Shown here: positions 46,067-47,022 of the stretch, in pieces
How the letters are laid out: each line of letters begins with the position of its first letter
How positions within the stretch are numbered: the first letter of the stretch is position 1
Origin: Hydrogenothermaceae bacterium
GTDB taxonomy: Bacteria > Aquificota > Aquificia > Aquificales > Hydrogenothermaceae
DNA: 64,000 nt
Assembly (NCBI GenBank): GCA_026418535.1
Contig: JAOABC010000004.1
Coordinates: 1 to 64,000, forward strand
Direction of reading: 5' to 3'
The notes under the pieces: generated by a model
What the model was told of the DNA's origin: nothing
Databases searched by the model: none
The model's input: only the letters and a program-made list of their open reading frames with translations
Translations under genes and position numbers: made by a program

Positions 46067-46110
46067 ATGTGCACCTCGTTTAAACTACACCCTTACCAAA
46101 TTTTATCATA

Positions 46111-46360
46111 ACTATGTGGATAACCTGTGGATAACTTGTGGATAAAATGTGGATAACTCCAAACAAACCCTACCTATACCCACCGCTTATCCACATGATA
46201 TCCACATCTTAACCTACCTATTTTAGGTATTCAAGATATTGATGAAAACGATTTTTTTAAAAAAGTTGTCCACATATCCACATTCTATTATTTATATAAA
46301 AATTTATATAAAAATAAATAAAAATAATAAAATAATAATAAAAAATAATTAGAAATAAAA
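46111..46360. other. oriC: Probable chromosomal replication origin (oriC)
   Basis: This intergenic region (46067-46401) holds four perfect DnaA boxes TGTGGATAA in the same orientation at exact 11-bp steps (46115, 46126, 46137, 46148). A perfect box TTATCCACA (46187) and three near boxes follow in the other orientation: ATATCCACA (46198), TTGTCCACA (46266) and ATATCCACA (46274). The last two abut an extended, almost GC-free stretch (46284-46370) with TAATAATAATA-like repeats resembling a DNA unwinding element with DnaA-trio-type sequence. No dnaA or dnaN is adjacent. Confidence 0.82.
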
Positions 46361-46401
46361 TTTACTTTTTTAATGGATGAGTTTCTATATTTTTTTTGTA
46401 G

Positions 46402-47022
46402 TTAGATCGCTTCTGCCTCTGCTGTTTGGGAGTCTTTAATCAGTTTTATTTTCTTCTTTATCACTAACCCTCCGGATAAGACGGTTCTCATAGCCTCTTC
46501 AACTGTCAAGTCTGTGAATATCAAATCATCCTTATTTACGAAAAGTAAGAATCCGGAAGTAGGGTTTAGAGCAGCCGGAACAAACACCAAATACTTTTCA
46601 TTCTCACAAACCTTAACTTGGTTAGATAAAAACCCTATAGCTAGAGAATCTGGATGAGGGTACTTCACCAATACAACCTTTGAGAAACTCTCCTTGTTTA
46701 AAAAAAGTGTCTCAACAGTCTGTTTTGTTGCGTTGTATATAGATCTTACTATAGGAATTTTTGATATCAGTAGTTCCCAATACAAAAGAATTCTTTTACC
46801 AGCGTAGTTTTGAGTCATAACTCCAAGGATAAAGATGATGGACAAAGTTATAACTATACCTATACCAGGTATCTCTGGGATAGGTATACCGATAAGTCTT
46901 ATATATGGTAGTATCAAGTCGTTTATGGTAGTAAGGACAGCCTTTACTACCCAGAATGTTATGGCAATAGGTATCAACACAAATAGACCTGTTATGAGAT
47001 AGTTTTTTATCCTCTGTATCAC
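46402..47022 (-). CDS. DUF502 membrane protein
   Basis: 206 residues with two N-terminal membrane helices (about 9-33 and 51-70), ITGLFVLIPIAITFWVV and PGIGIVITLSIIFILGVMTQNYAGKR, and the family blocks IPIVRSIYNATKQ and VFVPAALNPTSGFLLFVN. Widely conserved, function unknown. Ends at the edge of the origin region; overlaps the protease gene by four bases (ATGA). Confidence 0.9.
   Translation of the reverse strand: MIQRIKNYLITGLFVLIPIAITFWVVKAVLTTINDLILPYIRLIGIPIPEIPGIGIVITLSIIFILGVMTQNYAGKRILLYWELLISKIPIVRSIYNATKQTVETLFLNKESFSKVVLVKYPHPDSLAIGFLSNQVKVCENEKYLVFVPAALNPTSGFLLFVNKDDLIFTDLTVEEAMRTVLSGGLVIKKKIKLIKDSQTAEAEAI

Follow-up and report, generated by a model that had tools for sequence, protein, structure and literature searches.

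A predicted chromosomal replication origin with DnaA-trio-like and IHF-like elements in the Hydrogenothermaceae

In Escherichia coli (NC_000913.3), two DnaA boxes of the replication origin (oriC), which we take to be R1 and R5M, are separated by 55 bp, and a match to the IHF consensus, GATCAACAACCTG, starts at +27 from the first of them. The origin of Thermotoga maritima presumably has a divergent DnaA box. DnaA-trio elements occur in the unwinding element of this thermophile-lineage origin, and ssDUE recruitment with HU has been proposed for it (PMC10316083). In Bacillus subtilis, the basal unwinding system (BUS) combines a DnaA box pair, a short spacer and trios of defined strand and side, and its published rule calls for a DnaA box (≤2 mismatches) and, no more than 16 bp away, three or more NAN trios (PMC8287927). 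The published IHF consensus is WATCAANNNNTTR (PMC5742627). IHF itself is reported only for the proteobacteria, nitrospirae and nitrospinae, a distribution that does not include the Aquificota (PMC10316083), and HU has been proposed to serve in its place elsewhere (reviewed in PMC10380432). Among the papers searched, none studied a Hydrogenothermaceae origin (DoriC may hold predictions for named relatives), and the locus presented here would place one for this lineage.

The window is a 64,000-nucleotide stretch (contig C24; JAOABC010000004.1) of a genome of 1.468 Mb in 29 contigs (GCA_026418535.1) from the Hydrogenothermaceae, a family of heat-loving bacteria. Its intergenic segment at 46115–46370 is very probably the chromosomal oriC (probability roughly 0.93), based on box anatomy, uniqueness of the box cluster, family conservation, and the skew axis and distance conservation found in relatives (Table 1). 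An origin at this position had been proposed in the first-pass annotation, and the proposal is supported by conservation across the family, by a DnaA-trio module, by third-position GC (GC3) axes in three relatives (G001, G003, and G024), and by conserved distances between two of them (G003 and G024). The individual sequence features were also recovered as described: the four boxes in 11-bp steps are exact copies of TGTGGATAA on the plus strand, the opposite-orientation boxes comprise one exact copy and three with a single mismatch, and the nearly GC-free element is the lowest-GC 88-mer in the window, where a GC content of 10% or less is confined to its surroundings. The placement of the four boxes on the same helix face is approximately right, since 11-bp steps at 10.5 bp per turn drift by a total of ∼50 degrees. 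Exact TGTGGATAA boxes number 29 genome-wide, five of them in the cluster, and no other box pair at 11-bp spacing (≤2 mismatches) occurs elsewhere in the genome. Against a background of 24 other sites in ∼2.9 million strand positions, chance does not account for three more perfect boxes at a fixed spacing. The cluster is unique in this genome, and the AT-rich unwinding element directly adjoins its boxes.

Table 1. Features of the predicted origin (window coordinates).
Feature	Position	Strand	Remarks
Predicted oriC (DnaA-box region and AT-rich unwinding element)	46115..46370		inside intergenic 46067-46401
Array of four perfect DnaA boxes, 9 bp each, 2-bp spacers	46115..46156	+	starts 46115, 46126, 46137, 46148
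Two opposed DnaA boxes, 11-bp spacing	46187..46206	-	46187 perfect; 46198 one mismatch
IHF-like site CATCAATATCTTG, one mismatch to WATCAANNNNTTR	46232..46244	-	between unwinding-side boxes and array; consensus match, family-conserved position class; putative protein-binding site
Unwinding-side DnaA box pair TTGTCCACA/ATATCCACA, 8-bp spacing, 1-bp overlap	46266..46282	-	starts 46266, 46274, each one mismatch
DnaA-trio-like triplets CTA TTA TTT ATA (+ strand; 3'-GAT AAT AAA TAT-5')	46285..46296	-	2 bp from box
AT-rich duplex unwinding element, 88 bp	46283..46370		3.4% GC

We searched 60 relatives for two boxes at 11-bp spacing. A dense box cluster was detected in most Hydrogenothermaceae genomes, at a single locus in each besides scattered two-mismatch matches, while some genomes had no cluster at this box-pair stringency. 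Most origins of the family have (TAA)nTAG-type repeats, the pattern of DnaA-trios, beside the box that is closest to the AT-rich element, with a spacer of ∼1 to 14 bp, often 2 bp. This arrangement is like the B. subtilis BUS in its box pair, its short spacer, and the strand and side of its trios (PMC8287927), and differs from it in that the unwinding-side pair of one relative (G003), of genus g7, and of the window has an 8-bp spacing and overlaps by 1 bp. In the window, this pair is followed by TT and then by triplets with the required middle base, and the BUS rule is matched by the box at 46274–46282, the 2-bp spacer, and the four triplets, although the rule is lenient in AT-rich DNA. Family conservation is a better argument for the trio module than the rule match; the TAATAATAG trio repeats of relatives are clearer than those of the window, which are few. 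Trio elements within the unwinding element are shared with T. maritima, whose eTrio of three TAG repeats is absent from the window.

Strand composition in relatives provides a further line of evidence. GC3 skew per gene was compared between leading- and lagging-strand genes and scanned over axis positions; for G003 and G024, the samples covered about a third to two fifths of each chromosome. The cluster ranked first of 194 axis positions in G003 (p = 3e-6) and first of 192 in G024 (p = 1e-8), and in a contig of the genus-mate G001, the best axis fell at 65 kb, compared with 66 kb for the cluster (p = 7e-14), these p-values being optimistic in that they assume independent genes. The sign of the skew in the relatives corresponds to a G-rich leading strand, as at an origin. 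For orthologues of G003 and G024, distance from the cluster is correlated and side is not (45 blocks, rho = 0.35, p = 0.018, likewise optimistic in assuming independent blocks), and the two clusters together rank seventh of 420 axis pairs, the best pair being one step off. Plain GC skew and gene orientation were too noisy in the G003 and G024 samples for placing an origin, and a first orthologue-distance test, based on 34 pairs from 10 blocks, could not tell the axes apart and was then enlarged.

The window's own contig behaves differently. GC3 skew keeps its sign across the cluster (difference -0.032, p = 0.09), the 29 contigs of the genome are unordered, and samples of three other contigs have moderate, mixed skew with no clear switch. 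Gene order on C24 is the same as in G001 from the left up to the cluster and is reshuffled rightward, where the first block is inverted. Put most simply, the chromosome has probably been rearranged next to the origin, and an assembly join is possible. It is also conceivable, but improbable, that the locus acts as oriC in the relatives but that here the assembly is chimeric or wrongly joined on the right, or the active origin has shifted: the absent sign change would fit, as would a right flank that opens with a block situated ∼190 kb away in the genus-mate, but all origin parts lie to the left of the break in the order of the genus-mate, the genome has no second cluster, and the many shuffled blocks farther right are as ordinary rearrangement would give. 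We regard as more improbable still that the cluster is a datA- or DARS-like locus, which would titrate or regulate DnaA instead of acting as an origin. Such loci likewise contain both an IHF site and DnaA boxes (PMC5742627), but this cluster is the sole one in its genome, abuts an unwinding element with trios, and sits on the skew axis in three relatives.

The cluster is flanked on the right by DUF502 (PF04367, 95.7 bits) and on the left by a small lipoprotein-like ORF. These neighbors had been named in the first-pass annotation, although its label "CcmI-like" for the latter is weak because the Ig_CycH match is sub-threshold (23.5 vs. a cut-off of 27 bits). In G001, the left neighbors (lipoprotein, CinA) are retained. 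DUF502 was rejected as an origin marker, since the contig search gave one locus, ∼190 kb from the cluster in this genus-mate; the gene order shared with the window stops between the unwinding element and DUF502 (46283–46402), with shuffled blocks rightward. A rule based on gene neighbors would indeed miss the cluster, because the neighboring genes are not conserved and vary between genera. Nor is the cluster beside dnaA, which sits on another contig (C27) and is intact, its product matching TIGR00362 (467 bits) and the Pfam AAA+ and DNA-binding domains. This location away from dnaA is a difference between the Hydrogenothermaceae origin and that of B. subtilis, and dnaA is a poor guide to the origin in most Hydrogenothermaceae examined. 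The distance from dnaA to the cluster is 861 kb in G003 (C2), 725 kb in G024 (C1), and ∼765 kb in G059 (C1), which in chromosomes of 1.75–1.93 Mb leaves dnaA nearer the presumed terminus; G005 is an exception, with dnaA 47 kb from the cluster.

The gap between the unwinding-side box and the next array has a modal length of 54 bp in the family. Among 27 such gaps (from related species, and hence non-independent), the IHF consensus occurs perfectly in 12 and within one mismatch in 24, as against dinucleotide-shuffle expectations of 0.13 and 2.7, and counts of 1 and 7 on the opposite strand. Every one of the nine genera tested has at least one member with a site within one mismatch, and several family members have more than one IHF-type site. 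Site starts fall into two groups, at roughly +26 to +30 and +37 to +38 relative to the box, about one helical turn apart. At the family level, an IHF-consensus site thus lies between an R1-like box and an array. The window's gap holds a one-mismatch site rather than a perfect one (CATCAATATCTTG), at +30 from the second box and within a 68-bp box-to-box interval. A strict box-IHF-box pattern was matched by 16 genomes among 136 Aquificota, all of them Hydrogenothermaceae, with no control matches and no match in the window's genome.

As candidate bending proteins, the window's genome encodes three members of the HU/IHF family (PF00216), one of which is HU-like, while IHF models outscore HU models for the other two; none of the three scores above the curated IHF or HU cut-off, and no genome-encoded IHF was found by this measure. 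The first divergent type is present in most of the family (exceptions among the more complete genomes being G005, G009, and G029), and the second is likewise widespread. The second divergent type has a shortened DNA-binding arm and is without the usual RNPKT tip, as observed family-wide for the HU/IHF-like paralogue at L085:1471-1752 (contig C23 of the window's genome), so that a standard IHF heterodimer cannot be assumed. A simple link between the presence of a divergent paralogue and the presence of the site was inconsistent across the family. The window's genome is not classed as having an IHF-bent origin of the E. coli type, although it may still work in this way. With a likelihood that we place somewhat short of even, the gap element could instead be a weak DnaA box or a flexible stretch preferred by HU. 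The reported restriction of IHF to proteobacteria, nitrospirae and nitrospinae (PMC10316083) and the sub-threshold scores of the three proteins are in keeping with this alternative, as are a variant, TTATCAATA, that matches the DnaA box at 7/9 bases, and the perfect site kept by G009, in which no divergent paralogues were found at the thresholds used. However, the elements share a cross-genus core, WATCAA with TTR four bases on, and include forms such as AATCAAACACTTA that are unlike a DnaA box; they keep to one strand (12 perfect sites in the expected orientation and 1 in the other, against 0.13 expected), and their offsets from the box cluster at 26–30 or 37–38, about a helical turn apart.

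Judged from its sequence, the Hydrogenothermaceae origin layout is in part like that of E. coli and in part like that of Bacillus. The family shares with E. coli an unwinding element, an R1-like box, an IHF-consensus site, a head-to-tail array, and opposed boxes, as well as the R1-to-array distance (55 bp in E. coli, modal 54 bp in the family) and a site offset of +27. The E. coli array sites are weak, whereas the family arrays consist mostly of perfect-consensus boxes, and the family differs further in its clear TAATAATAG trios and, in several members, additional IHF-type sites; the window departs from E. coli in its 68-bp gap and one-mismatch site at +30. At such an origin, DnaA would bind the boxes and assemble head-to-tail as two oppositely oriented arrays, and an ATP-DnaA filament would run from the box pair at 46266–46282 onto the adjoining trios, opening the AT-rich element (46283–46370), where the helicase would be loaded. 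The array that follows the unwinding-side boxes could be brought to the opened strand, and help hold it, through bending of the intervening DNA, probably by a protein of the HU/IHF family. These steps of binding, filament formation, bending, and opening at 46115–46370 are inferred from the arrangement of the elements.

We conclude with high confidence that the locus in the Hydrogenothermaceae window is oriC. What is unusual is that, family-wide, phased IHF-type sites occur alongside a clear trio module, a combination that the window represents imperfectly. More tentatively, and with odds we consider to be against it, a divergent IHF-like protein may bend these origins at specific sequences and in conserved phase, in combination with the trio module, such that ssDUE recruitment (as argued for E. 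coli) and a trio filament (as argued for B. subtilis) would act at one origin, and the R1-bend-array geometry would be common to Aquificota and Gammaproteobacteria. With origins of consensus quality, the family makes trio-filament and bend-assisted unwinding testable in one system, and specific IHF-type bending at oriC beyond the phyla with reported IHF becomes directly testable.

The boxes themselves vary within the family. In G009, three contigs (C112, C135, and C278) carry an identical 62-bp origin stretch, as either duplicate contigs or real copies. The origin boxes are TGTTGATAA instead in several species of genus g8 (G021, G025, and G031) and have shifted to TGTGCATAA in genus g9 (G009 and G022), which suggests an altered DnaA-box preference inside the family.
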